Shown piece after piece: positions 2,726 through 63,552 of a stretch of DNA of 64,000 bases. How positions within the stretch are numbered: position 1 is the first letter of the stretch; the number at the start of each line of letters is the position of its first letter. This DNA is from an uncultured Eubacteriales bacterium (GTDB lineage: Bacteria; Bacillota; Clostridia; Christensenellales; Aristaeellaceae): contig CADASK010000003.1 of NCBI GenBank assembly GCA_902790495.1, positions 1-64,000 on the forward strand, read 5' to 3'. The position numbers were made by a program, and so were the translations under genes. The notes under the pieces are model-generated. The model did not search any database and was not told the DNA's origin. It was given only the letters and a program-made list of their open reading frames with translations.

Positions 2726-2848
2726 GTTCCGCGCCTGCGGGCGCGGGGAGGGGGTTTTGCGATCGGTCCGGGGCTGCCGCCCGCTCTCCGCTGAAAACTC
2801 CATAACATGGAGTTTTCCAGGCGCTCCGAGCCCCCTCCACCCCTTCGC
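2726..2848 (-). repeat. Family-A palindromic element, long form (copy A1)
   Basis: Directly abuts the hisF stop. Read on the minus strand it has an outer stem GGAGGGGGC / CCCCCTCC, an inner AAAACTCCAT / ATGGAGTTTT stem-loop, the conserved GATCGCAAA segment and a terminal CCGCGCC / GGCGCGG hairpin. It is closely related to the copies at 36114 and 55021. There is no T-run, so it is not a simple terminator. Confidence 0.85.
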
Positions 2849-2941
2849 TCGCCGTTTTTTTGATCAGCATAGAAGATATAGCAGTTTGTGGCCGCGCCCA
2901 TAGGCGCGGAATCCCCGCAATCGACCTAATGAGGTATCACG

Positions 2942-3994
2942 ATGGCCTACGAAAGCTCGCTGGCGCTGTCCCTCACCCCCTACACCGCGGGTGAGCAGCC
3001 CAAGATCCCCGGCCTCATCAAGCTGAACACCAACGAGAACCCCTACCCGCCGTCGCCGCGCGTGGCGGAGGCGCTGCAGGGCCTCGCGGACAGCCTGCGC
3101 CTCTACCCGGACATGGAGGCCACCGCCCTGCGCGAGGCCATCGCCCAGGTCAACGGCGTGGTGCCGGAGCAGGTTTTCTGCGGCAACGGCTCGGACGAGG
3201 TGCTGGCCTTCGCCTTCGCGGCCTTCTTTGCCGGAAAGACCCTGGCTGTGCCGGACATCACCTACTCTTTCTACCCGGTGTACGCGAAGCTCTTCGGCGT
3301 CGCTCTGCACACGGTGCCGCTGCGGGAGGACTTCACGGTGGACGTGCCCGCCATGCAGGCGGAGGGGCCTATCGCCCTGGCAAACCCCAACGCGCCCACG
3401 GGCGTCCGTCTGCCGTTGGAGCGGGTGCGGACGCTGGCGGAGCACTGCCGCGACAAGGACGCCGTGCTGCTGGTGGACGAGGCCTACGCGGCCTTCGCCG
3501 AGGAGAATGCGCGCCCGCTGATGGACGATTTTGACAATGTGCTGATCGTGCGCACCTTCTCCAAGAGCCACGGCCTGGCGGGATTGCGGCTCGGCTATGC
3601 GCTGGGCAGCCGGCGGCTGATCGACGCCCTGCGCCGTGTGCGGGATTCCTTCAACAGCTACCCGGTGGACCGCCTGGCCCAGGCCGCCGCGCGCGCGGCC
3701 ATCCTGGACACGGCCTACACGGAGGAAGCCGTGCGCCGGGTGAAGGCAACCCGCGACGGATGCGCGGAGGCCCTGCGGGCGCTGGGCTATCAAGTGCTGC
3801 CCTCGGAGACCAACTTTCTGTTCGTCCGCGCGGACGAGACGGACGCCGCGCCGGTGATGCAGGCCCTGCGCGAGCAGCGGATTCTCGTGCGGCACTTCTC
3901 CGCGCCGAGGCTGAAGGCGTGGCTGCGGATCACCGTCGGCACGCAGGAGGAGATGGAGCGGGTTGTGGAGGCTCTGGGAAGGCTCAAAGCGTAA
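2942..3994 (+). CDS. hisC: Histidinol-phosphate aminotransferase
   Basis: PLP-dependent class I/II aminotransferase that converts imidazole-acetol phosphate and glutamate to histidinol phosphate. The 350-residue length is typical. Visible landmarks are LNTNENPYPPSP (29-39), NPNAPTG (149-154), the aspartate in LLVDEAYAAF (near 179) and the PLP lysine in TFSKSHGLAGLRLGY (Lys208). It is the third his gene of the cluster, separated from hisF by a family-A element rather than a promoter I can recognise. A strong terminator follows. Confidence 0.96.
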   Translation: MAYESSLALSLTPYTAGEQPKIPGLIKLNTNENPYPPSPRVAEALQGLADSLRLYPDMEATALREAIAQVNGVVPEQVFCGNGSDEVLAFAFAAFFAGKTLAVPDITYSFYPVYAKLFGVALHTVPLREDFTVDVPAMQAEGPIALANPNAPTGVRLPLERVRTLAEHCRDKDAVLLVDEAYAAFAEENARPLMDDFDNVLIVRTFSKSHGLAGLRLGYALGSRRLIDALRRVRDSFNSYPVDRLAQAAARAAILDTAYTEEAVRRVKATRDGCAEALRALGYQVLPSETNFLFVRADETDAAPVMQALREQRILVRHFSAPRLKAWLRITVGTQEEMERVVEALGRLKA

Positions 3995-4017
3995 TCGAAT
4001 GAGATTTATATGAAAAA

Positions 4018-4061
4018 ACAGCCGGACAGCCTTGTGTGAAAAGGTTGTCCGGCTGTGTTTT
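4018..4061 (+). terminator. Rho-independent terminator after hisC
   Basis: A stem of ACAGCCGGACA... paired with ...TGTCCGGCTGT, followed by GTTTTCT. It lies between the convergent hisC and acyltransferase genes and could serve both. Confidence 0.85.
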
Positions 4062-4075
4062 CTATTGAAAGATGC

Positions 4076-4744
4076 TCACTGAAACATACCGTTCAGGATC
4101 TGCCGGGACAGCTCCGGCACCTGCTCCTCCAGAGAGCGCCCGGCGTCCCAGACGATGGGGGCCTTCACCCGCAGGGCGTGGGCCCGGGCGTCCAGATGGA
4201 TCGGCCAGATCTTCAGCTCCTCGCCGGTCAGCTTTCGATACATCGGCAGCAGATTCAGGAAGCCCTCGTTGATCTTGTCCGTGCTGTGCTCCCCGTAGCC
4301 CGTGGGGATCTCCGGGAAGATGACGATGTGCTGCTTCTCGTCCCGCAGCACGCGCAGGGTCTCCTTCATGGTGCGCACGGCGCGGATGTCGTGATAGACC
4401 GGCACGTGGGGCACGGAGCGCAGGATCGGCGGCAGCAGCACCGACACCACCGGCGGGATCACCGCGTTGTAGAAGGGTGCGAGGCGCGAGGTCTCGTTCC
4501 ACCAGTGATCCTGGCGCACATAGGCCGGGGTGGTCTCGCGGCTGAGGGGATCGGCGAAGATCCAGATGCGGCTCTCGTCCACCAGGGGGAAGTTGACCGC
4601 CATCTCCAGCGGACCCATGGCGCGGTCGTGGTTGCACACGAAAACGCAGGGCCTGCCGTCAAAGGGCACTTCCCAGGTGGTCTCCACCCGGGGAAGAAAG
4701 GGACGCACGACGAAACGGAGAAAATGATACAGCCGAAGACCCAA
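4076..4744 (-). CDS. PlsC-like acyltransferase with altered HX4D motif
   Basis: A 222-residue protein resembling the PlsC/LPLAT glycerophosphate acyltransferase superfamily, with an N-terminal hydrophobic stretch (LYHFLRFVVRPFLP) and a block around VCNHDRAMGPLE (residues 36-47) where the catalytic NHX4D motif should be. His39 is present, but the position of the catalytic Asp is Gly44. The later block VIFPEIPTGYGE (141-152) corresponds to the FPEGxxS phosphate-binding motif and is also altered. It is therefore a divergent or non-canonical member, perhaps acting on another substrate. The gene is monocistronic and convergent with hisC. Family assignment is fairly good, activity uncertain. Confidence 0.7.
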   Translation of the reverse strand: MGLRLYHFLRFVVRPFLPRVETTWEVPFDGRPCVFVCNHDRAMGPLEMAVNFPLVDESRIWIFADPLSRETTPAYVRQDHWWNETSRLAPFYNAVIPPVVSVLLPPILRSVPHVPVYHDIRAVRTMKETLRVLRDEKQHIVIFPEIPTGYGEHSTDKINEGFLNLLPMYRKLTGEELKIWPIHLDARAHALRVKAPIVWDAGRSLEEQVPELSRQILNGMFQ

Positions 4745-4898
4745 GAGAAACCGCTCCTTCCAGCTTGGTCAAAGGTGACGGCCTCCATCTTACCACATCC
4801 GGGCCGCGCGGGCAAGAGCGGGAAGGCGACAGCCGCGCTGTCCGGGCCGCCCGTGTGAAAAATTTCCCCGCGGCCTACCCGTGGGCCGCCATCTGTGC

Positions 4899-4904
4899 TA
4901 TGAT
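4899..4904 (+). promoter_or_regulatory. Putative -10 box upstream of the MBL lipoprotein gene
   Basis: TATGAT lies about 60 bases before the ATG at 4963. No convincing -35 hexamer accompanies it. Confidence 0.35.
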
Positions 4905-4962
4905 AAACAGACAGCGATCATGAGCCGGGAATGCCCAGAAACCCCGGCGGGAAGGAAACCCG

Positions 4963-5865
4963 ATGAAGATCCTCACACGCCTGCTGGCGTTTTCCCTTTG
5001 CCTCGTGCTGCTGTGCGGCTGCGCCCTCGGCGAATAGCACGTCTACGCGGCCTCGACCTCGGAGCCCTTCGACGGCAGCACGCCGCTGCTCACCCTCTAC
5101 GTCTGCCCGCTCTACGGCGCGGACTGCATGCTGATGACCTACGACGGCCTGACCATGATGATCGACGGCGGCCTCACCGAGCAGGTGGAGACCATCCAGA
5201 AGATGCTGGACGAGGTCGGGGTGGATCACCTGGACATGTTCGTCAACAGCCACCCGCACAACGACCACCTCACCGGCTTCCTGACCCTGACGGAGCAGGG
5301 AACGCTCACGGCGGACGCCTTCTACACCTTCTTCCCCCACGACTACACCGAGTACACGGTCAGCCAGATGCGGGCGATGAAGCTGTGCGACGAGAAGGGC
5401 ATCGAGGTGATCGACGTGACCGACGGCGACACGATCCCCTTCGGCGACGTGGACATCCGCTGCATGCAGTTCAAGGGGCACAAGGCGGTCAACAACCTCT
5501 CGGGCGTGCTGCGCGTCCAGTACGGCGACTGCACCCTGCTGCTCACCGGCGACATCGACGGTGCGGCCCAGCGCGACCTGGCCAAGCGCTATGACCTGCA
5601 CTGCGACATCGTGAAGGTGCCCCACCACGGCATCACCTCCCTGGAGTGGGCCTTCATGAAGGACATCACGCCGGAATACATGTTCATCCCCCACGGCGCG
5701 GGCGACACCGCCAAGGATCAGCAGGTGCTCAACAAGTACAAGATCCCCTACGGCTTCGCCTCCTGGGGCATGATCAAGCTGACCACCGACGGCACCCGCT
5801 GGCTGGTGGAGCAGCACGTGGACGATCCGAAACTCCAAAAAGATAAGCGTTTGAAGTTTTATTGA
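4963..5865 (+). CDS. MBL-fold lipoprotein (ComEC-type hydrolase domain), interrupted by in-frame TAG
   Basis: The reading frame from ATG 4963 encodes a lipoprotein signal peptide (MKILTRLLAFSLCLVLLCGC, lipobox LLCGC), meets TAG at codon 25 (5035-5037), and continues in the same frame without another stop to 5865. The remainder is a metallo-beta-lactamase domain like the C-terminal part of ComEC: MIDGGL, the metal motif SHPHNDHLTG, LLTGDID and KVPHHG. Third-codon positions are almost all G or C on both sides of the TAG, so it looks like one gene. Without readthrough only a cytosolic form from ATG 5128 could be made, and that ATG has no visible ribosome site. Decay, sequencing error or amber readthrough are all possible. 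Confidence 0.75.
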
Positions 5866-5881
5866 CCAGGAGGCGATCCCC

Positions 5882-6751
5882 TTGCATGTCTTCATCGTCA
5901 ACCCCATCGCCGGCGGCGGCTTCGCCCTCAAAGCCGAGGAAGCCCTGCGCAGCGAGATGAACCGCCGCCATGCCCCCTGCGTCTTCCTGCGCACGGAAAG
6001 CCCCGGCCACGCCGAGGTGCTGGCCACCCAAGCCGCCCTCTCCGGCGCATCCGCCGTCATCTCCGTGGGCGGCGACGGCACCTCCCTGGAGGTCGCCCGG
6101 GGCCTGGTGGGCAAGAGGGCCGTGCTGGGCATCATCCCGGCGGGCACGGGCAACGACCTGGTCAAGACCCTGGGTATTCCCCGGGATCTGAAAAGCGCAC
6201 TGGACGTGGCCCTGAACGGCACGCCGCGGAAGGTGGACGCCGCCCGCATCAACGGGAAGCTCTTCCTGAACGTGGCCGGCCTGGGCTTCGACGTGCGCGT
6301 GCTGGATGAGACCGAGCGCTTCAAGAAGCACCTGCGCGGCCTGCTGCCCTACCTGTGCGGCTTAGTCTGCGCGATTGTTCGCTACAAGCCGACCCACGTG
6401 CGGCTGACCACGGACAGCGGCGAGCAGGAGCTGGACGCCCTGATCTGCGCGGCGGCTAACGGCCGGTACATCGGCGGCGGCATCGCCATCTGCCCGGACG
6501 CCTCGGTGGAGGACGGCCTGCTGGACGTGGTGGTGGTGCGGGATCAGCCCCGCTGGAAGCTGCCGCGCTACCTGCCGGGCCTGATGATGAAGCGCATCCT
6601 GAAGTTCCGCATCACCTCCCGGGTGAAGGCCAAGCGCGTGGAGATCGACTGCCCCGGCGCGCGGGTGCAGGTGGACGGCGAGATCAGCCCGATGGATCAC
6701 GTGGTGGTGGAGGCGCTGCCTGGCGCCCTGCAGATCAATCTGCCGGGATAA
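5882..6751 (+). CDS. Diacylglycerol kinase-family lipid kinase
   Basis: A DagK/YegS/BmrU-type kinase that phosphorylates a lipid such as diacylglycerol or a related lipid at the inner face of the membrane. The 289-residue product starts MHVFIVNPIAGGG, has the nucleotide-binding SVGGDGT motif near residues 60-66, PAGTGNDLVKTL, and the C-terminal YegS-like beta domain (ARVQVDGE). The start is TTG 5882: AGGAGG at 5868-5873 is 8 bases away and no in-frame ATG lies nearby. It follows the MBL gene by 16 bases and is probably co-transcribed with it. Confidence 0.9.
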   Translation: MHVFIVNPIAGGGFALKAEEALRSEMNRRHAPCVFLRTESPGHAEVLATQAALSGASAVISVGGDGTSLEVARGLVGKRAVLGIIPAGTGNDLVKTLGIPRDLKSALDVALNGTPRKVDAARINGKLFLNVAGLGFDVRVLDETERFKKHLRGLLPYLCGLVCAIVRYKPTHVRLTTDSGEQELDALICAAANGRYIGGGIAICPDASVEDGLLDVVVVRDQPRWKLPRYLPGLMMKRILKFRITSRVKAKRVEIDCPGARVQVDGEISPMDHVVVEALPGALQINLPG

Positions 6752-6786
6752 AGCAGGATTTTCACCATCCCTGTCGAATGAATATA

Positions 6787-6855
6787 AGATACCGCGAATA
6801 GATATGACGCACGTCGTGCTGTACGCCTGATGATCTGCAAACCGCCGCGGTATCT
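6787..6855. other. Perfect 10-bp inverted repeat in the intergenic leader
   Basis: AGATACCGCG at 6787-6796 is matched by CGCGGTATCT at 6846-6855, enclosing 49 bases that contain a smaller GCAC-GTC-GTGC hairpin. It ends about 34 bases before the start of the next gene. It could be a structured leader RNA or an operator. A weak TATAAG -10-like box overlaps its left arm. Confidence 0.5.
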
Positions 6856-6888
6856 CTCATCTGCTGCAATTAAAGGAGATGCTTTGAA

Positions 6889-7557: not shown

Positions 7558-7567
7558 GGCGAGAGCG

Positions 7568-7897
7568 ATGCCGGATCGTTATTATGCTTACCATGCAAAC
7601 ACCTTTGTCTGGGATGAGGAAAAGAACATCAAAAACATCCGCAAGCATGGTATATCCTTTCCCATCGCAGCGCATGTTTTTGATGATGAACTGAGACTGG
7701 AGTATCCGGATCCGGAGCACAGTGAGGAGGAAGAACGCTGGCACACCATCGGCCTGGTTCATGATATCCTGACCGTCGTATACTGCGACCGCGTCAATCG
7801 TGTGACCGGCCAAACGGATATCCGCATCATTTCAGCAAGGCTTGCAACCAGGATTGAACGCGACGCCTACAACAATAACATCATTGGGCGATATTGA
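7568..7897 (+). CDS. BrnT-family toxin
   Basis: The 109-residue sequence has the BrnT ribonuclease-toxin layout: FVWDEEKNIKNIRKHGISF near the N-terminus, then VFDD, a WHTIG strand, a TVVYCDR strand and RIISARLATRIERDAY at the end, the family's typical closing block. It starts only 10 bases after the preceding gene and is followed at once by a short acidic protein, as expected for a toxin-antitoxin pair. Codon usage is less GC-biased than the neighbours, which fits acquisition by transfer. Confidence 0.85.
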   Translation: MPDRYYAYHANTFVWDEEKNIKNIRKHGISFPIAAHVFDDELRLEYPDPEHSEEEERWHTIGLVHDILTVVYCDRVNRVTGQTDIRIISARLATRIERDAYNNNIIGRY

Positions 7898-7921
7898 ATG
7901 CTGACAGAAGGAGGCTGCCTG

Positions 7922-8128: not shown

Positions 8129-8138
8129 TCATTTCTGG

Positions 8139-8236: not shown

Positions 8237-8262
8237 AGCCAGAGAAGGAGCGTGATGCGCTT

Positions 8263-10282: not shown

Positions 10283-10299
10283 TGGTACATCGGCTGCCA

Positions 10300-10354
10300 C
10301 GAAGAGTCCAGAGGCGACCGGAAAGCCTCTGGTCGCCGCCCGCAGGCGGCGAAA
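10300..10354 (+). repeat. Family-A palindromic element (copy A2)
   Basis: Stem 1 is CCAGAGGC / GCCTCTGG around GACCGGAAA; stem 2 is CGCCGCC / GGCGGCG with loop CGCA. Confidence 0.85.
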
Positions 10355-10374: not shown

Positions 10375-10413
10375 GTTCCGCGCCTGCGGGCGCGGGCAAA
10401 GGGCTTTGCAATC
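10375..10413 (-). repeat. Family-A palindromic element, partial (copy A3)
   Basis: Contains stem 2 (CCGCGCC / GGCGCGG) and one arm of stem 1. It is opposite in orientation to A2, 20 bases away, so the two form a tail-to-tail pair between punA and tldD. Confidence 0.75.
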
Positions 10414-13770: not shown

Positions 13771-13817
13771 TTGTGCCCCAAAGCACTTCTTCAACAGAAG
13801 GATCAAAAGCGGCCGCC

Positions 13818-13872
13818 CGAAGAGTCCAGGGGCGATCGCAAAGCCCCCTGCCCGTGCCCGCAGGCGGCGAAA
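13818..13872 (+). repeat. Family-A palindromic element (copy A4)
   Basis: AGGGGC-GATCGCAAA-GCCCC core. The second hairpin is damaged in this copy (GTGCCCGCAGGCGGCG), so one arm has drifted. Confidence 0.75.
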
Positions 13873-18108: not shown

Positions 18109-18137
18109 TAAAAACACGCACGCTTATATGGCGGCGG

Positions 18138-18193
18138 CGAAGGGGTGCAGGGGGCGATCGCAAAGCCCCCTGCCCGCGCCCGCAGGCGCGGAA
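18138..18193 (+). repeat. Family-A palindromic element (copy A5)
   Basis: CAGGGGGC-GATCGCAAA-GCCCCCTG, then CCGCGCC-CGCA-GGCGCGG. This is a near-consensus copy between the convergent MFS and htpG genes. Confidence 0.88.
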
Positions 18194-27500: not shown

Positions 27501-27689
27501 AACAGTTTTAATCAGATTTTCAGATTTGGACGAAGGCTGCGAAGGGCTGTCAGGGGCTTTGCCATTCCCCCGGCAGCCCTTTGCATCTGCCTCTTCCAAA
27601 TCACAGAAAAACATGGTAGAATGTCAGGTGAGCAACAGCCCGGCGCGGAGGGAAAGACCGCGTCGGTTTTGTCGAAGGGGGGAAACGGA

Positions 27690-35420: not shown

Positions 35421-35490
35421 AGAAGCCGCGCGCAGCGCAAAAGAAAAACGCCGATGACCAGCATCGACGTTCATGGGAGACAAGCTGCCT

Positions 35491-35544
35491 CGAAGGTCCA
35501 GGGCGATCGGAAAGCCCTGGTCGCCGCCCTCAGGCGGCGAAACC
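35491..35544 (+). repeat. Family-A palindromic element (copy A6)
   Basis: CCAGGGC-GATCGGAAA-GCCCTGG, then CGCCGCC-CTCA-GGCGGCG. It touches the stop codon of the convergent DUF4332 gene. Confidence 0.85.
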
Positions 35545-36033: not shown

Positions 36034-36113
36034 CCCGCAACAAGGAAAAAACAGCGTCCATTCACAATTTGAATGCAACAGCTTCGCGACACAACGGCAT
36101 ATGTGCGAAGGGG

Positions 36114-36236
36114 CGAAGGGGTGGAGGGGGCTCGGAGCGCCCGGAAAACGCCATGTTATGGCGTTTTCAGCGGAGAGCGGGCGGTAGCCCCGGACCGATC
36201 GCAAAGCCCCCTCCCCGCGCCCGCAGGCGCGGAACC
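36114..36236 (+). repeat. Family-A palindromic element, long form (copy A7)
   Basis: Outer stem GGAGGGGGC / GCCCCCTCC, middle stem CGCCCG / CGGGCG, inner stem AAAACGCCAT / ATGGCGTTTT with loop GTT, conserved GATCGCAAA, then terminal CCGCGCC / GGCGCGG hairpin. A stray half of the terminal hairpin recurs at 36284-36302. Confidence 0.88.
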
Positions 36237-40571: not shown

Positions 40572-40612
40572 GAATCTGATATCATAACAATGCGACAAGC
40601 CCAACGGGCACC

Positions 40613-40671
40613 CGAAGGTTTCCAAAGGGCGATCGGAAAGCCCTTTGGCCGCGCCCGCAGGCGCGGAACCC
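40613..40671 (+). repeat. Family-A palindromic element (copy A8)
   Basis: CCAAAGGGC-GATCGGAAA-GCCCTTTGG, then CCGCGCC-CGCA-GGCGCGG. Confidence 0.88.
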
Positions 40672-40712: not shown

Positions 40713-40766
40713 GTCGGCCTGCGGGCCGACCCGGGGGCTTTGCGATCGCCCCCGGGACCCCTTCGC
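40713..40766 (-). repeat. Family-A palindromic element (copy A9)
   Basis: A variant copy: terminal hairpin GTCGGCC-TGCG-GGCCGAC and stem 1 CCGGGGGC / GCCCCCGG around the conserved loop. It faces A8 head-on with 41 bases between. Confidence 0.85.
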
Positions 40767-43263: not shown

Positions 43264-43288
43264 TGCCCCCGGGACCCCTTCGCAGCAT
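43264..43288 (-). repeat. Family-A fragment (copy A10)
   Basis: A 25-base stretch identical to the end of copy A9 including its flank (GCCCCCGGG...CAGCATG). The rest of the element is missing. Confidence 0.7.
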
Positions 43289-45084: not shown

Positions 45085-45109
45085 CGCCCGCAAGCGCGGA
45101 ACCCATGCA

Positions 45110-45505: not shown

Positions 45506-45537
45506 AATGCCCTTTGCGGTTGCATGGCAGCAGAGGG

Positions 45538-45595
45538 TTTCGCCGCCTGCGGGCGGCGACCAAAGGGCTTTGCGATCGCCCTTTGGAAACCTTCG
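45538..45595 (-). repeat. Family-A palindromic element (copy A11)
   Basis: CCAAAGGGC / GCCCTTTGG stem with the GGCTTTGCGATCGCC loop region, and terminal CGCCGCC-TGCG-GGCGGCG hairpin. Confidence 0.88.
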
Positions 45596-45666
45596 CCCTT
45601 CGCCGTTATCGTGTGCTGCTGTTTACTTGAGCTTGTTTAATTGTTGCCTACAGGAAGTGTGAGCCT

Positions 45667-48600
45667 ATGGTGATGCTGAGAGAACGTGCGCGGCTGCTGG
45701 CGGCGGGGGTGCTGCTGGCGGCTTTGCTGTGCCTGCCCATCGCGGCGGGAGCGGACGGCGGGGAGAACCTGCTGACCAACCCCTCCTTTGAGACGGTGGG
45801 GAGCAACGGCCTGCCCTCGGGCTGGTCGACGGACGCCTACCTGCGCACCGAGGGCTACACCGTGTGGAGCACGGACGACGGCGCGCAGGACGGGAACGTC
45901 AGCGCGGCCATCCACAACATCGGCCTGAACGACGCCCGCTTCACCCAGCGCGTGCGGGTGGAGCCGGAGAGCCTCTACCGCCTGTCCGGCTGGGTGAAGG
46001 CCCAGAGCGACGCGGGCGACGAGAACGGCTGGGGCGCCAACCTCTCCGTCGAGGGCGTCTACGCCTCCACCGACTGGATCTACGACACCGACGGCGCGTG
46101 GCGTTATGTGGAGATGTACGGCGAGACCGGTGAGGATCAGACCGAGGTGGTGGTCTGCGCCCGCCTGGGCGGCTACAGCGGCGAGAGCGTGGGCATGGCC
46201 TGGTTTGACGACCTGCGGCTGGAAAAGGTGGACTCCGTGCCGGGCGAGGACATCGCCCTGCGCTGGTACAACGTGGCCCGGCCTGCGGCGGCGGAGAGCT
46301 TCGACGAGGACGAGGCGGCCCCCTTCTACCCGTGGCTCATCGCCATCGCGGCGGTCTACACCCTGGCGCTGCTGGGGATGCTGCGCTGGCTGGGGGAGAG
46401 GCGGCAGCCGCTGGAGAGCCGGCGGGAGCGGACGTCCCCGCTGTTCTGGGTCGGCCTGGCCCTGGCCTTCGGCCTGCGCGTCTTCATCGCCCTGCGGGTG
46501 GAGGGCTACCAGGTGGATGTCAACTGCTTCCGCGCCTGGGGCGACCGCATGGCCTCGGTGGGGGCGGCGGGCTTCTACAGCGCGGACTGGTTCTGCGATT
46601 ATCCCCCGGCCTATCTCTATGTCTTGGGGCTGTGCGGCAGGGCGGTGCGCGCGCTGTCGGCAGACGCGGCCCTCTCCGGCGAGGCGGCCATGCTGGTCTA
46701 CAAGCTGCCGGTGATGCTCTGTGACCTGGGCCTGGCGGCGCTGCTGGAGCGCTTCAGCCGGGAGCGCAGCGCGGACCGCGGGCGCTCGGCGGCCCTCGGC
46801 CTGCTGCTGGCCTTCCACCCGATGCTGATCCTCAACAGCGCGGCCTGGGGCCAGATCGACAGCGTGCTGGCCCTGCTGATCTGCGCGATTGCGTACCTCG
46901 CCATCCGCAAAAACTGGCGCGCGCTGATGCCGGTCTACATGCTGGCGGCGCTGGTGAAGCCCCAGGCGCTGATGCTGGGCTTTTTGGGCCTGACCTGCCT
47001 GGCGATGGTGGGACTCCGGGAGAAGGAGAGCCGCAAGGCCATGCTCCAGGGCGCCGGGCTGGCAGTGCTGGTGCTGCTGGCGGTGGTGACGCCCTTCTCC
47101 ATTCGTCAGCAGCCGGACTGGCTCTTCCTCAAGTACGGCGAGTCCCTGGCCTCCTACGCCCACGCGACGGTGAACACCGCCAACCTCTACTACCTCTTCG
47201 GGGCGAACTGGGCGAGCGTGACGCTGCCGGCGAACCTCGGCGCGGCCCTGTGCCTGTGCCTGACCGCGGCGCTGTGGGGCCTGTGCGTGTTCCGCCGCCT
47301 GCGGGCGGAGGGCAGGCGCCTCATCTGGGTGGAACCGACGCTGATGGCGGCCTTCGCCCTCTTCTTCCTCTCGGCGGGTCTGGCCGGGGCCTCCTGGTCG
47401 GTCGTCGGCTACGGCGCGATGGCCTTCGCCTTCGCGGTGACCCTGCCGCTGTACATCCGCGCGGGGAAGGTGGAAAATCTGCCGCTGCTGGGCGGGCTGC
47501 TCTTCCTGCTGCTGTACACCCTGGGCATCAAGATGCACGAGCGCTACCTCTTCCCGGCCATTGCCCTGCTGTTCATGGCCTGGGCGGTGCGGCGGGATGC
47601 GCGCATCCTCATCGCCCTGGCGCTGAGCGGCGCGGCCATGTTCGTCAACACGGGCATCGTGCTGGACAACTCCATCCGCCTGGGCAGCGCGCTGGGCCAC
47701 CTGAACAGCGACACCCAGGGCCTGGCGAATGGCCTGGCGGTGCTGAACCTGGCCTCGCTCATCCCGCTGCTGGGCGCGGCCCTGGACGCCTGCCTCTCGC
47801 CGGAGCGCGAGGTGCGGCTGCACCTGCCCTTTGGGCTGAGGCTGCGGGAGGCGGAGCCCGTGCCGGTCACGGCCTTCCGCACGGACGCGGGGCTGCACTG
47901 GTCGCGCAGGGACACGGCCATCCTCGCCGCCATCACCCTGGTCTACAGCGCGGTGGCCCTGTGGAACCTCGGCAGCACCAAGGCCCCGCAGACGGCCTGG
48001 ACCTCCACCGGCTACGACGAGCAGGTGGTGCTGGACCTGGGCGAGCGGCACGAGGACTTCTCCATGGCCTACTTCGCGCGGGTCAGCTACAGCAACTTCT
48101 CCGTGGAGACCAGCGACGATGGCGTCACCTGGTCCCAGCCCTATCCCGCGCAGATGGCCGAGGGCATGTGCTTCCACTGGACCTATCTGATGCCCGCCAC
48201 GGCGGACGCCTACGGCAACGCGAGCTTCGTCTCCTCCGTGCGCTACGCCGACGTGCAGAAGCTCTCCGGTCGCTACGTGCGGCTGACGGCGGATCAGATC
48301 GGCCTGCAGCTGTGCGAGGTGATCTTCCGCGAGAGCGTGACCGAGGCCGTGAACCACACCGATGCGGAGAACGGGAGCACCTGGACGGAATACGTGCAGC
48401 ACAGCGGCGCGGAGATCCCCGCGACGTTCGTGCGGCAGACCGGCATCAACATGGATTCGCCGCTGCTCTCGGACGGGGCGGCGGTCTGCGACGAGCCGGG
48501 CACCCTCGAGGGCGAGCCGGGCTGGTACAACTCCACCTACTTCGACGAGATCTACCACGCGCGCACGGCCTACGAGCACCTGCACGGCCTGGTACCCTAC

Positions 48601-54986: not shown

Positions 54987-55020
54987 TCCATTTCTCTCAT
55001 CGACTTGCGATGTGTCAGGG

Positions 55021-55143
55021 GTTCCGCGCCTGCGGGCGCGGGGAGGGGGCTTTGCGATCGGTCCGGGGCTGCCGCCCGTTCTCCGCTGAAAACTCCATAA
55101 CATGGAGTTTTCCGGGCGCTCCGAACCCCCTCCACCCCTTCGC
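55021..55143 (-). repeat. Family-A palindromic element, long form (copy A12)
   Basis: Very similar to copy A1 (inner stem AAAACTCCAT / ATGGAGTTTT). It lies between the binding-protein gene and the second permease, inside what should be one operon. Confidence 0.87.
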
Positions 55144-57945: not shown

Positions 57946-59418
57946 ATGTTTGAAGAAAAGAAAGCGGCCTGGCTGGCCCGGGCGGAGGCCTGCAAGCCCG
58001 CGCTCCGCACGGAGACGGTGCGGCCCGCCGCCGGCATGCCCGCGCAGACGCTCAGGGAAAACGACAGCGTCGTGCTGGACTTCGGCAACCACTTCGTGGG
58101 CAGGCTGACCCTCAGGCTGCGCAGCGAGGGCAGCCACCCGGACGCCCCGGCCTGGCTGCAGGTGAAGTTCTGCGAGAACAGCCGGGAGCTGAACGAGACG
58201 CTGGAGGGCTACCAGGGCTGGATCAGCAAAGGCTGGGTGCAGCAGGAGTAGGTGCACGTGGATGTGCTGCCGGCCGTGCTGGCTCTGCCCAGGCGCTACG
58301 CCTTCCGCTATGTCCGGATCGACGTGCTGGCGCTCTCCTCCAAGTACAGCCTGGTGATCGAGGACGCCTGGGCCGAGACCACGACCTCCGCCGACGACAG
58401 CACGGTGGAAGCGCTCCGGGGCGAAACCTGGGAGGAGGCCATCGACCGTGTGGCCCTGCGCACCCTGCGCAGCTGCATGCAGGACGTCTTCGAGGACGGG
58501 CCCAAACGGGACCGCCGCCTGTGGCTGGGCGACCTGTGCCTGCAGACCCTGGCCAACAGCGTGACCTACCGCCGCTTTGACCTGGTGAAGCGCTGCCTGT
58601 ATCTCTTCGCCTGTGCGGCGGATGGCGAGGGCCGCATCCCCGCCTGCCTCTTCACCGAGCCTCAGGTGGAGGGCGACGACACCTACATGTTTGACTACTC
58701 CCTGTTCTTCATCCCGACCCTGCTGCAGTATGTCCAGGCCAGCGGCGACCGGGAGACGGGGGAGGAGCTGCTGCCGCTGGCGCTGCATCAGCTGAAGCTG
58801 GCGGAGGAGCGGTTTGACCCCGAAACCCAGCTCATCCGGGACAGCGATCAGCTGGGCTGGTGCTTTGTGGACTGGAACCTGCAGCTGAACAAGCAGTGCT
58901 CCGCCCAGGCCGTCTGGCTCTATTGCGCCCAGGCCGCCCTGCAGCTGAAGGAGGATCCGGCGCTGGCCGGTCTGATTGAGACGCGGAAGGCCGCCATGCT
59001 CGCCCACTGGTACGACCGCGGGCGCCATCTGTTTGTCAGCGGCGCAGAGCGGCAGATCTCCCGGGCCTCCCAGGTGTGGGCCATCCTGGCCGGCGCCGTG
59101 ACCGGCGAGGAGGCGCGTGCCTGCCTGGACGCCGCCGCGGCCTGCCCCGAGGCCCTGGCCATGGTGACGCCCTACATGATGCACCACTACGCCGAGGCCC
59201 TGTGCCTCGTCGGCCGGAGGCAGGAAGCGCGCCAGGTCATCCGGGACTACTGGGGCGCGATGGTGAACAGCGGCGCGGACACCTTCTGGGAGCTGTTCAA
59301 TCCCGCCGACCCCGACGAATCCCCCTACGGCTCCCCGGTGGTCAACAGCTACTGCCACGCCTGGAGCTGCACGCCCACGTGGTTCCTGAGAAGCGGGGTG
59401 CTGGGGGAAAACAGCTAA
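57946..59418 (+). CDS. GH78-like alpha-L-rhamnosidase, interrupted by in-frame TAG
   Basis: From ATG 57946 the frame runs 101 codons, meets TAG at 58249-58251, and then continues without a stop to TAA 59418. The first part (VLDFGNHFVGRLTLRL...WISKGWVQQE) is a beta-sandwich typical of the N-terminal side of GH78 enzymes. The part after TAG contains VLPAVLALPRRYAFRYVRID and the (alpha/alpha)6 catalytic domain with FEDGPKRDRRLWLGDL, which carries the acid residue region. AGGAG before the TAG could allow restart at GTG 58252 or 58258. With readthrough it would be a 489-residue cytosolic enzyme completing the sugar operon. Confidence 0.78.
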
Positions 59419-59473
59419 GATACAATCTCGGCCGGATGCGCCTGGGAAGCGGCGGTCCAGCCATGGGGAATAC

Positions 59474-59513
59474 AGAAAAACCATGCGAGGGTTTGAGGCT
59501 TCGCATGGTTTTT
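59474..59513 (+). terminator. Terminator of the sugar operon
   Basis: AAAAACCATGCGA / TCGCATGGTTTTT, near-identical to the hairpin at 49922 including the central loop. Confidence 0.9.
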
Positions 59514-59528
59514 GTATGCATCTGTCTG

Positions 59529-61442
59529 TCATTCCGCCGCCTCGGCTTCCAGCGCCTCCCACTTCTCGTAGAGCTGGGCGATCTCGTCCTTCTTGCGCTG
59601 GTAGCTCTTCGCCAGCTCGGCGGCGAGGGCGGCGTCCTGGTAGGTCTCCGGGGCGGCGAGGCGGGCCTCCAGCTCGGCGGCCTCCTCCTCGGCGCGCATC
59701 ACGGCGGCCTCGGCCTCCTTCACCGCCAGGGCAAGGGCCTTCTGGCGCTGCTGCTCCTCGCGGGAGCGCCGCTTCTCCTTCTGCTGGGCGGTGCGGGTCT
59801 GGGCGGGCAGGCTGCCGTCCGGCGGCATCTCCCGGTTAATCTTCTCGAAGTAGTCGTCGTAGTTGCCCAGGTACTCGTCGATGTGGCCGTCCTGGAGCAC
59901 CAGCACCTTCTCGGCAAAGCGGTTGATGAAGTACCGGTCGTGGCTGATGGCGAGGATGGTGCCGGGGAAATCCTGCAGGGCCTGCTCCAGCACCTCGCGG
60001 CTGTCCATGTCCAGGTGGTTGGTGGGCTCGTCCAGCAGGAGCAGGTTGTCCTTGTGCAGCATCAGCTTGGTGAGGGCGACGCGGCCCTTCTCGCCGCCGG
60101 AGAGGGTGTCGATGGGCATCAACACGTCGTCGCCGGTGAAGAGGAACAGCCCCAGCGCGCCGCGCACCTCGGTCTGATCCAGGCGGCGGAAGTCGTCCCA
60201 GACCTCGTCCAGCACGGTCTTCATGGGGTGCAGCTTGGCCTGGTGCTGGTCGTAGTAGCCGATGTCCACGCCGGTGCCGAAGCGGATGACGCCCCGGTCG
60301 GGCTTTTCCTCGCCCACGATGCACTTGAGCAGGGTGGATTTGCCCGTGCCGTTGTCGCCGATGAGGGCGCAGCGGTCGCCGGCGCGCAGGTGCAGGTTCA
60401 CCCCGTCGAAGAGGGTGCGGCCGTCGTAGCCCTTGCCCAGCTCCTCGATCATCAGCACGTCGTCGCCGGTGCGGCGGCGGCACTCGAAGCGGAAGCGGAT
60501 GGCGCTCTCGTCCTCGGGCCGCTCCAGGCGCTCCAGCTTCTCCAGCCGCTTCTCGCGGCTCTCGGCGGCGCGGATGGATTTCTCCCGGTTGAAGGAGCGG
60601 TAGCGGGCGATGATGGCCTCCTGCCGCGCGATCTCCCGCTGCTGCATCTGCCAGGCCTTGCGGCGGATCTCGAAGCGCTCGGCGCGCTGGCCGATGTAGT
60701 CGGTGTAGTTGCCGTTGTAGCACTCCACGGTGCCGAAGAGCAGCTCGCCGATGCGGCCGCACACGTGATCCATGAAGGCGCGGTCGTGGCTGATGAGCAG
60801 CACGGCCCCGCGGTAGCTGTTCAGGTAATCCTCCAGCCAGGCGATGGACTTCAGGTCCAGGTGGTTGGTGGGCTCGTCCAGCAGCAGGATGTCCGGCTCG
60901 GTCAGCAGCATGCGGCCCAGGCAGAGCCGGGTGCGCTCGCCGCCGGAGAGCAGCGCCGCCCGCTGTCCCTGCTGATCCTTGCGGAAGCCGAGGCCGGCCA
61001 GCACGCCCTGCACGGTGGAGCGCCAGCCGTAGCCGTTGGCGCGCTCGAAGTCCCGGGTCAGCTGGTCGTACTGGCTGCCCAGACGGCGCAGGAGGTCGGC
61101 GTCCTCGGCGGCGTCGGCCATCTGCTCCTCCAAGGCGCGGAGCTGCTGCTCCATGGCGACCACCGGCTCGAAGACGCTCTCCAGCTCCTCCAGCACGGTG
61201 CGGCTTTCGTCCACCTCGCCCTGCTGGGCCAGGTAGCCGAAGCGCAGGCCCTTCTGCTGGGTGATGGTGCCGCCGTCGGAGGTCTCCAGCCCCGCGAGGA
61301 TCTTCATCAGGGTGGATTTGCCGCTGCCGTTGACGCCGACCAGGCCCATGCGCTCCCCGTCCTGCAGGGTGAACGAAACGTCCTTGAGCACCTCGTTGGT
61401 GCCAAAGCTCTTGCGGACGCCCTGTAAGGCCAGGAGGATCAT
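59529..61442 (-). CDS. ABC-F family ATPase
   Basis: A 637-residue soluble protein with two ABC domains and no membrane segments. Walker A motifs are GVNGSGKSTLMK and GDNGTGKSTLLK, signatures LLSGGERTRLCLGRML and LSGGEKGRVALTKLM, with Walker B DILLLDEPTNHLD and NLLLLDEPTNHLD. The linker and a C-terminal coiled coil (REEQQRQKALALAVKEAEAAVMRAEEEAAELEARL) are the ABC-F layout. Such proteins act on stalled or drug-bound ribosomes. ATG 61442 follows AAAGGAGA; an upstream in-frame ATG at 61484 has no family support. Confidence 0.94.
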   Translation of the reverse strand: MILLALQGVRKSFGTNEVLKDVSFTLQDGERMGLVGVNGSGKSTLMKILAGLETSDGGTITQQKGLRFGYLAQQGEVDESRTVLEELESVFEPVVAMEQQLRALEEQMADAAEDADLLRRLGSQYDQLTRDFERANGYGWRSTVQGVLAGLGFRKDQQGQRAALLSGGERTRLCLGRMLLTEPDILLLDEPTNHLDLKSIAWLEDYLNSYRGAVLLISHDRAFMDHVCGRIGELLFGTVECYNGNYTDYIGQRAERFEIRRKAWQMQQREIARQEAIIARYRSFNREKSIRAAESREKRLEKLERLERPEDESAIRFRFECRRRTGDDVLMIEELGKGYDGRTLFDGVNLHLRAGDRCALIGDNGTGKSTLLKCIVGEEKPDRGVIRFGTGVDIGYYDQHQAKLHPMKTVLDEVWDDFRRLDQTEVRGALGLFLFTGDDVLMPIDTLSGGEKGRVALTKLMLHKDNLLLLDEPTNHLDMDSREVLEQALQDFPGTILAISHDRYFINRFAEKVLVLQDGHIDEYLGNYDDYFEKINREMPPDGSLPAQTRTAQQKEKRRSREEQQRQKALALAVKEAEAAVMRAEEEAAELEARLAAPETYQDAALAAELAKSYQRKKDEIAQLYEKWEALEAEAAE

Positions 61443-61507
61443 GGCGTGGTCTCCTTTCGGCAAATGTTTTTTAAAGAAATGCATTCATATGCTGAATGCA
61501 GGAGCAG

Positions 61508-61565
61508 GTTCCGCGCCTGCGGGCGCGGGCAGGGGGCTTTGCGATCGCCCCCTGCACCCCTTCGC
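61508..61565 (-). repeat. Family-A palindromic element (copy A13)
   Basis: Stem CAGGGGGC / GCCCCCTG around the conserved loop and a CCGCGCC-TGCG-GGCGCGG terminal hairpin. It is paired with A14 in opposite orientation, 35 bases away. Confidence 0.88.
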
Positions 61566-61600
61566 GTCGCCTTTTTTTCAAGCTGCGAAAAGGTGCGGCC

Positions 61601-61654
61601 CGAAGGTCCAGGGCGATCGGAAAGCCCTGGTCGCCGCCCGCAGGCGGCGAAATC
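61601..61654 (+). repeat. Family-A palindromic element (copy A14)
   Basis: CCAGGGC-GATCGGAAA-GCCCTGG, then CGCCGCC-CGCA-GGCGGCG. It belongs to the other stem subtype than its neighbour A13. Confidence 0.88.
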
Positions 61655-61675
61655 CTTTTGCATAAGAGTGCAGAC

Positions 61676-61730
61676 CCTCATCCGTCAGCGTCTTGCGACG
61701 CTGCCACCTTCCCCCAGAAGGGGGAAGGCT
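61676..61730. repeat. Family-B repeat, truncated
   Basis: Begins like the family-B left arm (CCTCATCCGTCAGCGTC) and contains CCTTCCCCC / GGGGGAAGG, but lacks the right outer arm. It touches the stop codon of the walJ-like gene. Confidence 0.75.
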
Positions 61731-61732
61731 TA

Positions 61733-62557
61733 TCAAGCGAGCGCAACCGCATCGGGCTGGGCGAGCGTATACACCCCGCCCACGCGATCCCGCCAGGCCA
61801 GATCAATCCGGATATCCTCGCCCAGGCGCATGCCCTCCAGCTCCACGCGGTTCTCGCTGGTGGTCAGCGCGAGGCTGGGCGTGTTGTTCTCCCCGGAGAG
61901 GTGGCCGAGGATCAGGCTGCGGGTGCCGGCCTCCGCCAGGCGGACAATGGCCTCCGCGCAGGCTTCGTTGCTCAGGTGGCCGTGGTTGGAGAGGATGCGT
62001 CTCTTCAGCGCGGCGCTGTAGTGCGGGTTGCACCGCAGCATGTCGGGGTCATGGTTGCTCTCCAGCAGGATCAGGTCGCTGCCGGAGATGGCGCTGTGCA
62101 CGCTCTCGGTGTAGTGGCCGATGTCCGTGGCGGTGGAAAGGCTGACCCCGCTGCCCCACAGCCGGAAGCCGCAGGGCTCCGCCGCGTCGTGGGGGATGGC
62201 GAAGGGCACCACACCGATGTCGCCCAGGTAGAAGTCGCTGGAACGGTCGAAGACCCGCGCGAGCCCGGCGGGGACGCTGCCGAGCTTGCCGGTCATGGCC
62301 TGCCAGGTCAGCTCCGTGGCGTAGATCGGGATGCCGTACCTGCGGGCGAGGATGCCGGCCCCGGCGATGTGGTCGCTGTGCTCGTGGGTGATGAGCAGGG
62401 CGTCGATGCTCCCCGGCTCCACGCCGATGAACCTCAGTGCGTCGGTGATCATCTTGCCGGAGCGCCCCGCGTCGATGAGCAGGCGTGTGTTCCCGTATTG
62501 CACAAACAGGCAGTTTCCGCTGGACCCAGAGTACAGCGGGCAGAAAATCATGTCCAT
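61733..62557 (-). CDS. walJ: MBL-fold hydrolase of the WalJ/YycJ type
   Basis: A 274-residue cytosolic metallo-beta-lactamase-fold protein. It starts FCPLYSGSSGNCLFVQYGNTRLLIDAG and has the metal motif LLITHEHSDHIAG (near residue 55); further metal ligands are in LLESNHD and SNHGHLSN, and it ends in LILGHLSGENN. The SGSSGN start is typical of WalJ/YycJ, which in other Firmicutes lies beside the walRK cell-wall regulators and affects DNA processing. Those regulators are not nearby here, so the symbol is given on sequence only. Confidence 0.85.
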   Translation of the reverse strand: MDMIFCPLYSGSSGNCLFVQYGNTRLLIDAGRSGKMITDALRFIGVEPGSIDALLITHEHSDHIAGAGILARRYGIPIYATELTWQAMTGKLGSVPAGLARVFDRSSDFYLGDIGVVPFAIPHDAAEPCGFRLWGSGVSLSTATDIGHYTESVHSAISGSDLILLESNHDPDMLRCNPHYSAALKRRILSNHGHLSNEACAEAIVRLAEAGTRSLILGHLSGENNTPSLALTTSENRVELEGMRLGEDIRIDLAWRDRVGGVYTLAQPDAVALA

Positions 62558-62624
62558 GAAAATCCTATTCTGTCTTACACGATAACCAAGTGTGCGCTAA
62601 ACCGCAGCATGAAAGGAGGCGATG

Positions 62625-62683
62625 CGAAGGGGTGCAGGGGGCGATCGCAAAGCCCCCTGCCCGCGCCCGCAGGCGCGGAACCC
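62625..62683 (+). repeat. Family-A palindromic element (copy A15)
   Basis: CAGGGGGC-GATCGCAAA-GCCCCCTG, then CCGCGCC-CGCA-GGCGCGG. It is almost identical to copy A5. Confidence 0.88.
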
Positions 62684-62716
62684 CATGCAAAGGAAAGACG
62701 AGGAGAAAGACTTTTC

Positions 62717-63466
62717 TTAAACGTCAAGATGTTTGGCAACTCTCTCACTCTCCGGCGGCGGTGTCATATAATCCGCCCCGAAGAGAATCGTCAGCACCTC
62801 GTCATACTTCACAGGAATCAGCACCGGGATGCCCTCGAAGGGCACGGTCATCTTCTCCGCAAACTGCTCCGGATGCCAGATGTGCATCATCAGCTCAAAC
62901 GCACCGTTGCTCATGCACAGGTCGTCGCCCGTCTTGTACTTCGTGGAGATCTTCTCATAGCGGCTGGTCTTCCACTTCGTGGAGAAGGGCAGGCCCATCA
63001 GGTGCGTCACCCGCAGGAGGATGCGGTTTTTCAGCCCGAAGCGGCTGTAGTCCACATTCCGCTTCAGCATGCCCTGCAGCAGGTGCAGCCGCAGGAACCA
63101 CCACTTGCGCTGGAAGCCCTCCGGCGGCACATGGTCGAGGATGAACAGGTCGGTGAAGGCGGCGGCCTTCTCCGGATCGCGGTTCATCACGCGGGGCGTC
63201 CACGTGTTCAGGTAGGTCAGCTCGAAGCGCTTGTCGCACTCCTTCGGGTAGACCACGCGGAAGCGCTCGAACTCCTCGCGGGTGATGAGGAGGTCCACGT
63301 CGTCGTCCCAGGGGATGAAGCCCTTGTGGCGCACGGCCCCCAGCAGGGAGCCGCACATCATGTTGTACTGGATGTGGTGGCGGTCGCACACCGCGGTGAT
63401 GTCGCGGAGCTGCTCCAGCAGCTCGGCGTGAATGGCGTCGAGGGAAAGTTTGGTTTGTTCAGCCAT
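62717..63466 (-). CDS. LicD-family phosphotransferase
   Basis: A 249-residue protein with the LicD nucleotidyltransferase fold: LLEQLRDITAVCDRHHIQYNMMCGSLLGAVRHKGFIPWDDDVDLLITREEFERF, where GSLLGAVRHKGFIPWDDDVD is the family signature with metal-binding Asp residues. LicD enzymes attach phosphocholine or related phospho-groups to cell-surface glycans. The rest of the chain is the variable acceptor part. No other surface-polymer genes are adjacent. Confidence 0.92.
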   Translation of the reverse strand: MAEQTKLSLDAIHAELLEQLRDITAVCDRHHIQYNMMCGSLLGAVRHKGFIPWDDDVDLLITREEFERFRVVYPKECDKRFELTYLNTWTPRVMNRDPEKAAAFTDLFILDHVPPEGFQRKWWFLRLHLLQGMLKRNVDYSRFGLKNRILLRVTHLMGLPFSTKWKTSRYEKISTKYKTGDDLCMSNGAFELMMHIWHPEQFAEKMTVPFEGIPVLIPVKYDEVLTILFGADYMTPPPESERVAKHLDV

Positions 63467-63514
63467 AAGGCATACTCCTATTCAAACGGAGTGATTTCTT
63501 TTTGCGTGACGCAG

Positions 63515-63552
63515 GGGTTCCGCGCCTGCGGGCGCGGGTCAGGGGCTTTTGG
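63515..63552 (-). repeat. Family-A palindromic element, partial (copy A16)
   Basis: The terminal hairpin CCGCGCC-TGCG-GGCGCGG and one arm (CAGGGGCTTTTGGGAAGG); the rest is lost. Confidence 0.75.

Follow-up and report, generated by a model that had tools for sequence, protein, structure and literature searches.

Whether triplex DNA has a function in cells has long been debated, the arguments resting on in vitro folding and on single sequences. In Streptococcus pneumoniae, the BOX elements are modular repeats, in which an optional middle part lies between conserved ends. The element that we report here is REP-like, probably mobile, and probably a variant form of the intrastrand-triplex repeats (TMECO/PIT) of Holder et al. 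2015 (PMC4666352). In the excerpts of that paper on which we draw, the third strand runs antiparallel and forms A(T)AT and GGC triplets, and the TMECO triplex was demonstrated in vitro by CD, NMR and melting, while DMS footprinting of the E. coli motif gave no stable triplex in vivo. The same excerpts state that the authors' BLAST searches did not link TMECO/PIT to transposons.

Architecture and copies in the window

The window is a stretch of 64,000 nt from an uncultured Eubacteriales bacterium (contig CADASK010000003.1; genome G000). It holds 13 full copies of the element, 10 of a short A form and 3 of a long B form, together with fragments. The loop motif GATCGSAAA occurs 12 times, compared with an expectation of 0.76 and a largest shuffled count of 4. 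From 5′ to 3′, the element consists of SCGA, a segment L1 (the candidate third strand), the stem-1 purine arm, the loop, the 3′ arm and stem 2. The type example of the A form (18137..18193, + strand) has the full motif: the pseudoknot 5′ strand GCGA (18137-18140, predicted partner TCGC at 18158-18161), the predicted third strand AGGGGT (18141-18146), stem 1 (purine arm 18147-18155, 3′ arm 18165-18173) with loop GATCGCAAA at 18156-18164, and stem 2 with loop CGCA (18174-18191), all on the + strand.

The other A forms lie at 10299..10354 (+; loop GACCGGAAA), 13817..13872 (+; chimeric, with mismatched halves), 35490..35544 (+; stem 1 of 7 bp, L1 of 4 nt), 45536..45596 (−) and 62624..62682 (+), and in two opposed pairs: 40612..40670 (+) with 40717..40766 (−), and, head to head, 61507..61565 (−) with 61600..61652 (+), the latter again with a 7-bp stem 1 and a 4-nt L1. 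B forms are found at 2725..2848 (−), 36113..36236 (+) and 55020..55143 (−). They carry 65 extra nucleotides between a stem-1 arm and the loop (at 36132-36196 in the second), so that the arms are intact but held apart. This insert, seen as a single copy inside one hairpin loop, may be an optional loop module.

Two fragments (10375..10413 and 63516..63554, both −) are 3′ halves only, consisting of the stem-1 3′ arm and stem 2. A possible 5′ half at 43265..43283 (−; E 0.04) has SCGA, L1 and the stem-1 5′ arm with no 3′ arm after it, and a weaker one lies at 27539..27557 (+; E 0.013). A lone 19-nt stem-2 match at 45085..45103 (+) is possibly a remnant, and a second weak stem-2-like match (47289-47316) falls within a predicted gene.

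This inventory fits the roughly 16 copies of the original prediction, at the coordinates given there. The stem design proposed there is correct for the A form, but the B-form arms are separated by the insert and the arms of the copy at 13817 are mismatched. Its claim of both orientations and opposed pairs holds for the two pairs above and for many more in examined stretches of a relative, G099, where such pairs are frequent. The pseudoknot, third strand, long form and phage copies had not been seen.

Abundance and presence in phages

Rather than being confined to the window, a doubt raised with the original prediction, copies occur genome-wide: we found 456 sites with at most 2 mismatches in the 2.47 Mb source genome, and none in a reversed control. 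Among 12 species of one genus, copy number ranges from 0 to 413 exact sites (the genomes compared being incomplete MAGs), and genome G033 has 89 exact sites. Within the family, 20 of 150 genomes contain the element; for the order, a model (R1) applied with stricter filters, its scoring limited to 22 candidates per genome, gives 9 of 297. In another family, G345 has four matches, all on one contig; they look like G099 subfamilies, and a binning error may account for them.

At least 100 IMG/VR stretches match the element, some of the contigs being near-duplicates, and 76 of the 100 matching stretches listed hold 109 full elements. Ten proteins from seven element-bearing viral contigs match tailed-phage families (portal, terminase, head protease, tail sheath, tape measure and head decoration). 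A 59-nt query matched 11 human-faecal phage records and no plasmid.

Covariation of stems and of the predicted pseudoknot and third strand

Stem covariation was assessed in 19 distinct cores. Paired cells made up 96.8% of the total, compared with 80.7% in shuffles (0 of 500 as high), although pairing is partly by construction because a row had to have 8 or more of its 9 arm pairs to be included. The covariation score was 0.433 versus 0.144 (0 of 500). Pairs changed on both sides (6 versus 4.9; 115 of 500) and further pair types (8 versus 8.2; 390 of 500) were not above chance. Compensatory changes were found, in line with the structural covariation that had been claimed for the stems, with two of the four measures lying within the shuffles.

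The SCGA tag, usually 4-7 nt upstream of stem 1, covaries with the loop bases TCGS. Among 233 copies (the 5′ motif is missing in 2 of 235 hairpins), the 5′ base and the loop base are G-C in 89 and C-G in 141, with one T-G and two unpaired. The 109 viral copies divide into 92 C-G and 17 G-C. This covariation predicts a pseudoknot of 3-4 bp that would lock the hairpin; the fourth pair is broken in 36 of the 233 copies.

L1 tracks the stem-1 purine strand read antiparallel, as G.G, A.A or T.A, which is the purine-motif triplex code. Only positions 3 and beyond are informative, because the choice of search motif leaves position 1 of L1 invariant, and the viral pattern demanded GGGC as well as the loop. 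Across 66 distinct L1-plus-arm strings, the code is satisfied at 181 of 225 informative positions, as against a mean of 125 and a maximum of 150 in 5,000 permutations of the same strings; these counts are not strict probabilities because the compared strings share descent. For the 31 virus-only strings, 93 of 120 positions fit (64.9 when permuted, maximum 80). Shifting the register by −2 to +2 lowers the fit. Facing position 3, arm A occurs with A in 12 strings and with T in 10, and arm G with G in 41 (3 exceptions); facing position 4 there are 46 G.G, 17 T.A and 2 exceptions. Of the 44 misfits, position 6 accounts for 24 and position 5 for 12. The innermost L1 base is an A opposite G, outside the triplet code. 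Plain mirror identity accounts for 123 of 175 positions and the triplex code for 155. Watson-Crick pairing of L1, which accounts for 37 of the same facing positions, was rejected.

The length of L1 also tracks that of the arm: 6 nt with 9 bp (125 copies), 4 with 7 (36) and 5 with 8 (26), the counter-case being 20 copies that combine a 10-bp arm with a 5-nt L1. Natural variants, by the dozen, alter the third strand along with the duplex as the triplex code demands, in both sequence and length, which provides comparative evidence for selection acting on a triple helix. L1, which separates SCGA from stem 1, is predicted to lie as a third strand in the major groove of the hairpin. The features of an intrastrand triplex, an antiparallel purine third strand with G.G-C and A(T).A-T, are present here as a sequence code only, and the element supplies a natural, testable ssDNA structure.

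Probable mobility and exchange between copies

We compared 171 copies of the source genome with stretches of a sister species, G138, and 32 had a colinear interval. The core motif is missing from G138 at 28 of these 32 (25 intervals), including that of the copy at 45536..45596, by a test that detects the loop motif only and with several poor alignments. This is the presence/absence pattern of a MITE or other non-autonomous element, although absence could partly reflect loss in G138. The source-genome interval is longer than its counterpart by a median of 94 nt, the G138 interval being the longer one in 5 of the 28 cases. At the orthologous intervals, several of them poorly aligned, we could define no target-site duplication. 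At one orthologous locus the A and B forms are interchanged, with nearly identical flanks and the 65-nt insert precisely present or absent. In chimeric copies, the 5′ half comes from one subfamily and the 3′ half from another, with the junction at the loop. Truncation asymmetry was dropped as a sign of priming, as copies defective at the 5′ end and at the 3′ end both exist; most defective copies listed are chimeras, B forms or substitutions.

Search for a mobilising enzyme

Profile searches of the element-rich genomes G000, G099 and G024, all incomplete MAGs, with PF01797 (Y1), PF00078 (RT), PF07282 (TnpB), PF02371 (IS110) and PF04986 (Y2) found no gene of these five families. The original prediction had suggested mobilisation by a RAYT-type Y1 transposase, and this candidate was rejected: PF01797 had no match in those three genomes, in G033, G044, G138 and G008, or in any of 49 viral records (G150, G153 and G032 were outside the search). 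Y1 genes occur in 7 of 21 genomes searched, six of which hold at least one element; G119, G112, G064, G071, G131 and G091 are such low- or moderate-copy genomes with Y1 genes. None of 17 Y1 loci has an element within about 1.5 kb.

SINE-like reverse transcription was set aside, PF00078 being missing in G000, G099, G150, G138, G044 and G024 and present in 5 of 16 genomes (G033, G008, G112, G119 and G155). G033, with its 89 sites, does carry RT genes. We also rejected a TnpB guide RNA (PF07282 in 0 of 17 genomes), IS110 (1 of 17, G112) and Y2 (1 of 17, a partial match in G074, with none in 14 control genomes, a weak control). A multi-copy parent IS was rejected too: in a self-BLAST of 457 kb of the source genome, the 45 longest pairs listed were local tandem arrays and paralogue-like matches, with no long dispersed repeat. 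Since no mobilising gene was found, the mechanism of spread proposed below is one that we infer.

Alternative interpretations

The element could instead act as RNA where genes end (in termination, processing or stability), with the pseudoknot functioning in the 3′ part of the transcript. An H-type pseudoknot with an AAA loop does resemble RNA, and the gene context, analysed with our own codon-model gene calls for A forms in 457 kb of the source genome, agrees in part. Copies avoid divergent intergenic regions there (2 of 71 copies, versus 29 of 203 intervals of at least 60 nt), less clearly so in G150 (5 of 37 versus 12 of 74). Among phage copies, 55 of 95 lie within 40 nt behind a stop codon. 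However, orientation relative to the nearest gene ending towards the copy is variable (same/opposite: 47/22 in G000, 11/21 in G150, 6/13 in G099 and 25/70 in viruses), and stem-1 single-defect copies show no preference for G.T over A.C (4 versus 6; n=14, small numbers). The base triples follow the purine motif, which the excerpts of PMC4666352 describe for DNA. Rfam 15 had no match in the window at the gathering threshold, and the elements of L009 and L056 matched just plant microRNA models, far below those models' own thresholds. We consider an RNA role unlikely, and the processed RNA or 3′-end stabiliser of the original prediction is not favoured given the variable orientation, the lack of G.T preference and the DNA-type code.

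Two further explanations concern the spread of copies, and we regard each as quite improbable. The element could be an ordinary REP family whose RAYT-type Y1 transposase was lost, is too divergent, or is encoded in the few percent of sequence that the assemblies lack. The mostly intergenic positions (in the source genome, 6 of 73 copies overlap a predicted gene by at least 20 nt), opposed pairs, 5′ tetranucleotide and species-specific expansions match the REP/BIME lifestyle (as described in excerpts of PMC3733652), and Y1 genes do co-occur with the element in six genomes. Against this stand the seven genomes without a PF01797 match and the 17 Y1 loci that no element adjoins, as well as the geometry: the loop has 9 nt and SCGA usually stands 4-7 nt away from the stem, whereas the excerpts of PMC6006769 place GTAG/GTGG 0-2 nt from the hairpin. 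Alternatively, there might be no dedicated enzyme, the fold stalling replication and copies spreading by template switching, microhomology repair or gene conversion. The chimeric copies, the A/B interchange and the five families without a match would suit this. However, by our reasoning, a fixed unit at hundreds of unlinked sites with unrelated flanks is hard to achieve without a dedicated activity, and gene conversion suits the mixing of copies better than their dispersal.

With moderate confidence, we favour a REP-like chromosome and phage repeat, most likely a piece of non-autonomous mobile DNA. Its purine-rich strand, when single-stranded, is predicted to fold as a hairpin with a 3-4 bp pseudoknot and a major-groove third strand. 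Directly computed results bear on this reading: dispersal, copy differences between sister species, orthologous absences, phage presence, covariation of stem, pseudoknot and triple, and the negatives for five families. In the cell, it is DNA that would adopt this fold, such as the lagging strand or phage DNA during replication, and the fold may be the recognition signal of a trans-acting ssDNA-processing activity. That same activity might produce the copies, and phages may ferry the element from species to species. More tentatively, a pseudoknot and purine-motif triplex ssDNA fold, selected triple by triple, might be the recognition structure of a phage-carried element moved by a new class of ssDNA-processing enzyme. 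The element points to a new mobilising activity, one that would operate in Clostridia and in their phages. The original prediction is thus upheld in its REP/BIME-like dispersal, of intergenic palindromes mostly downstream of genes, and in its structural covariation, but not in RAYT mobilisation or an RNA or 3′-end role.

Comparison with known repeats

A literature text search with six core 15-mers, whose coverage left out most subscription journals, gave no match. Like BOX, the element has an optional middle module, but it differs in sequence, and its insert is a single copy within one hairpin loop. Like the GTAG and CGTC super-families of REP/BIME (excerpts of PMC3733652 and PMC6006769), it is a short palindrome that carries a tetranucleotide on its 5′ side, forms opposed pairs and lies downstream of genes. 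CGTC REPs, too, lack a dedicated transposase, and for the element none was found. No unpaired GTAG/GTGG or CGTC tag stands at the foot of its hairpin, and no Y1 gene flanked by copies, as in RAYT-associated REPs, occurs in the genomes searched. Unlike the REPs of those excerpts, it has an SCGA predicted to pair with the loop, a third-strand segment between tag and stem and a 9-nt loop, and its hosts are Clostridia and phages.

With TMECO/PIT, as the excerpts of PMC4666352 present them, it shares dispersed intergenic copies, a 37-nt length, two types of inverted pair and the purine-motif code (G.G-C with A.A-T or T.A-T). TMECO is class II, its printed control oligo running pyrimidine, purine, third strand, whereas the element runs third strand, purine, pyrimidine and so departs from the order of TMECO proper. 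Covarying triplets between subfamilies are not seen for TMECO/PIT in those excerpts. Unlike TMECO/PIT, the element also has the predicted SCGA:TCGS pseudoknot, a second hairpin and a loop insert. Its highest count in one genome is 413 exact sites, compared with 23 for TMECO in E. coli MG1655, and it is carried by phages, whereas TMECO/PIT are reported there to be absent from phages and plasmids.

Structure and modular inserts

From 5′ to 3′ the element consists of an SCGA tetranucleotide, the L1 segment (for example AGGGGT, AGGTTT or AGGAGT), the purine 5′ arm of stem 1, the loop GAYCGSAAA, the 3′ arm of stem 1 (mostly 7-10 bp) and often a second hairpin. This second hairpin, often with the loop CGCA, lies downstream of stem 1 in many genomes, and is absent from the copies in genome G008, from most copies in G112 and from many phage copies among those listed.

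The long B form keeps both stem-1 arms and has 65 nt inserted between the 5′ arm and GATCG. This insert has its own hairpin, which occurs with several matching arm pairs. At the same point, genomes G033, G008 and G024 have different structured inserts of about 60-100 nt with differing sequences (L050:11664, L056:9436, L056:4550 and L046:6950, between the stem-1 arm and GATCG); the inserts of G008 and one of G033 have ACCGAAACGAG...GACGATTGAGGTTGCGGAAC in common. At one orthologous locus, with otherwise nearly identical flanks, the window's genome (G000) carries an A form (L019:12007) and its nearest relative, G138, a B form (L152:8513), which differ by precisely the 65-nt loop module. Other copies are chimeric, with the 5′ half and its matching L1 from one subfamily and the 3′ half from another, joined at the conserved loop as if by recombination or template switching there (L020:15790, L020:6022, L016:276, L349:11049 and L360:12937, all on the minus strand; L355:442 on the plus strand; and window 13817-13872).

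Abundance in genomes and phages

The window contains 12 occurrences of GATCGSAAA, versus 0.76 expected, and 13 full element copies (ten A forms and three B forms), along with two 3′ halves, two matches resembling 5′ halves, and stem-2-like matches. A covariance model built from the element core recovered all ten A forms, each with an E value of 2e-5 or lower. G000 as a whole (2,466,513 bases in 78 contigs, 94.5% complete) has 456 sites matching GGGCGATCGSAAAGCCC with at most 2 mismatches, versus 0 for the reversed control, and 299 exact GGGCGAYCGSAAAGCCC sites. Within the genus, exact sites number 413, 299, 214 (in a genome that is 66% complete), 54, 45, 22, 6, 4, 2, 1, 1 and 0 per genome, and they are present in 20 of 150 genomes of the family. 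For one window protein, the nearest named relatives are metagenome-assembled Clostridia, many of ruminant gut origin, in a search that may omit entries from G000 itself.

The element pattern also matches at least 100 IMG/VR stretches. Among the matches listed, 76 stretches contain 109 full elements; the remainder are chance-like, degenerate or without the 5′ motif. Ten proteins from seven element-bearing viral contigs matched portal, terminase, head protease, tail sheath, tape measure and head decoration proteins. A 59-nt query matched 11 human-faecal phage records and no plasmids.

Several element copies are adjoined by another dispersed repeat, of approximate sequence CTCAGTC...GACAGCTCTCCCAGAGGGAGAGCCAAG, which lies upstream of the copies at L006:5456 and L015:14969 and downstream of the one at L016:258. 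A THF riboswitch lies at L009:6930-7027 on the minus strand (84 bits).

Covariation in stem 1 and the predicted pseudoknot

In 19 distinct stem-1 cores, which had been pre-selected for pairing, 96.8% of cells are paired versus 80.7% in shuffled data, and the covariation score is 0.433 versus 0.144 (neither value reached in 500 shuffles). Doubly changed pairs and pair types in these cores are not above the shuffles. For the predicted pseudoknot, SCGA base 1 and TCGS base 4 form G-C in 89, C-G in 141 and T-G in 1 of 233 A-form copies from 14 genomes, with 2 unpaired, and this variable pair is maintained in 109 of 109 viral copies. Because the search motifs dictate pairs two and three, these carry no information. 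The fourth pair (A-T) is broken in 36 of the 233 copies, with C responsible in 34.

A predicted triple helix between L1 and stem 1

Read from its 3′ end, L1 faces the purine arm of stem 1 such that an arm G is met by G, and an arm A by T or A. This code is obeyed at 155 of 175 facing positions in 35 distinct genome strings, which are related to one another and whose L1 position 1 was set in advance by the search motif; swapping right halves among equal-length strings gave a mean of 128.6 and a maximum of 144 in 10,000 permutations. When only the twenty 15-nt strings are considered, positions 3 and 4 agree with the code in 39 of 40 cases (permuted mean 22, maximum 35). A further 31 virus-only strings, from a pattern that demanded GGGC, fit at 93 of 120 positions from position 3 onwards (permuted 64.9, maximum 80 in 5,000). 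Together, genome and virus strings fit at 181 of 225 (permuted 125, maximum 150), and most of the 44 misfits adjoin the turn, with 24 at position 6 and 12 at position 5. The innermost L1 base, an A facing G, is not part of the code.

A one-position shift of the register brings the fit down from 0.92 to 0.63 or 0.72. Alternative rules applied to the same positions account for 37 of 175 (Watson-Crick or G.T) and 123 of 175 (plain mirror identity). In the common classes L1 is three nucleotides shorter than the arm (arm/L1 9/6 in 125 copies, 7/4 in 36 and 8/5 in 26), with an exception of 20 copies at 10/5. The L1/arm rule is the purine-motif code set out in PMC4666352, in which the third strand runs antiparallel and the triplets are GGC and A(T)AT. 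We reason that only the purine-rich strand satisfies this code throughout: in the T.A cases its complement would have to place A opposite A-T, a combination absent from the pyrimidine motif.

A possible weaker and simpler relative, judged by sequence, occurs in G237, from another family of the same order, as hairpins CAAGGGGC-GACC-GCCCCTTG (L229, L230, L231 and L232), with AAGGGGTT upstream in most copies listed. There the L1/arm code is retained, the loop is short and the pseudoknot is not visible.

DNA or RNA

Among 256 copies with at most 3 non-Watson-Crick pairs in a 9-bp stem 1, 14 have a single such pair, of which 4 are G.T and 6 A.C; in these small numbers, wobble is therefore not favoured. 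Orientation relative to the nearest gene ending towards the element is inconstant (same/opposite 47/22 in G000, 6/13 in G099, 11/21 in G150 and 25/70 in viral contigs). Together these two observations favour DNA over RNA, though not decisively. A stop codon lies within 40 nt of 55 of the 95 viral copies that have a gene ending towards them. Divergent intergenic regions contain 2 of 71 copies in G000 (29 of 203 intervals being divergent), 5 of 37 in G150 (12 of 74) and 1 of 20 in G099 (12 of 46).

Probable mobility and the search for an enzyme

The flanks and arrangement of copies differ between species: G099 has head-to-head pairs of two classes, G033 tandem copies and G024 paired classes. We examined 171 G000 copies, 32 of which had flanks aligning to one place in the examined part of G138. 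The core motif is absent at the G138 site for 28 of these 32 (25 intervals), with a median interval difference of +94 nt for G000 versus G138, and G138 the longer in 5 of 28. The four G138 sites with the motif comprise a different subfamily, an opposite orientation, the A/B locus and a shared copy. L361:1938 and L153:2871 mark one intergenic site shared by the two species, with a conserved terminator-like hairpin downstream of it. The site holds different subfamilies in the two, which suggests a preferred target or replacement.

Y1 (RAYT-type) transposases were not found in G000, G099, G024, G033, G044, G138 or G008 (G150, G153 and G032 lay outside this search), nor in any of the 49 element-bearing viral records searched, a set that includes many short fragments. 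Reverse transcriptase was not found in G000, G099, G150, G138, G044 or G024, and is present in G033, G008, G112, G119 and G155. TnpB was found in none of 17 genomes; IS110 was not found in 16 of 17, nor was Y2 in 16 of 17 in a weakly controlled search.

Comparison with known repeats

Canonical REPs carry GTAG/GTGG 0-2 nt from the foot of a hairpin whose loop is either short, at 2-5 nt, or a longer structure (PMC6006769); REP super-families are marked by a GTAG or a CGTC tag, and those with CGTC are without a dedicated transposase (PMC3733652). TMECO, described by Holder et al. 2015 (PMC4666352), is a class II purine triplex repeat that is 37 nt long and intergenic. It is reported to be stable in vitro, linked to instability, and not seen in phages or plasmids. 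The element and TMECO have the triplet code in common, but the strand order is reversed in the element, which adds a predicted pseudoknot clamp and phage carriage and reaches much higher copy numbers (PMC4666352).
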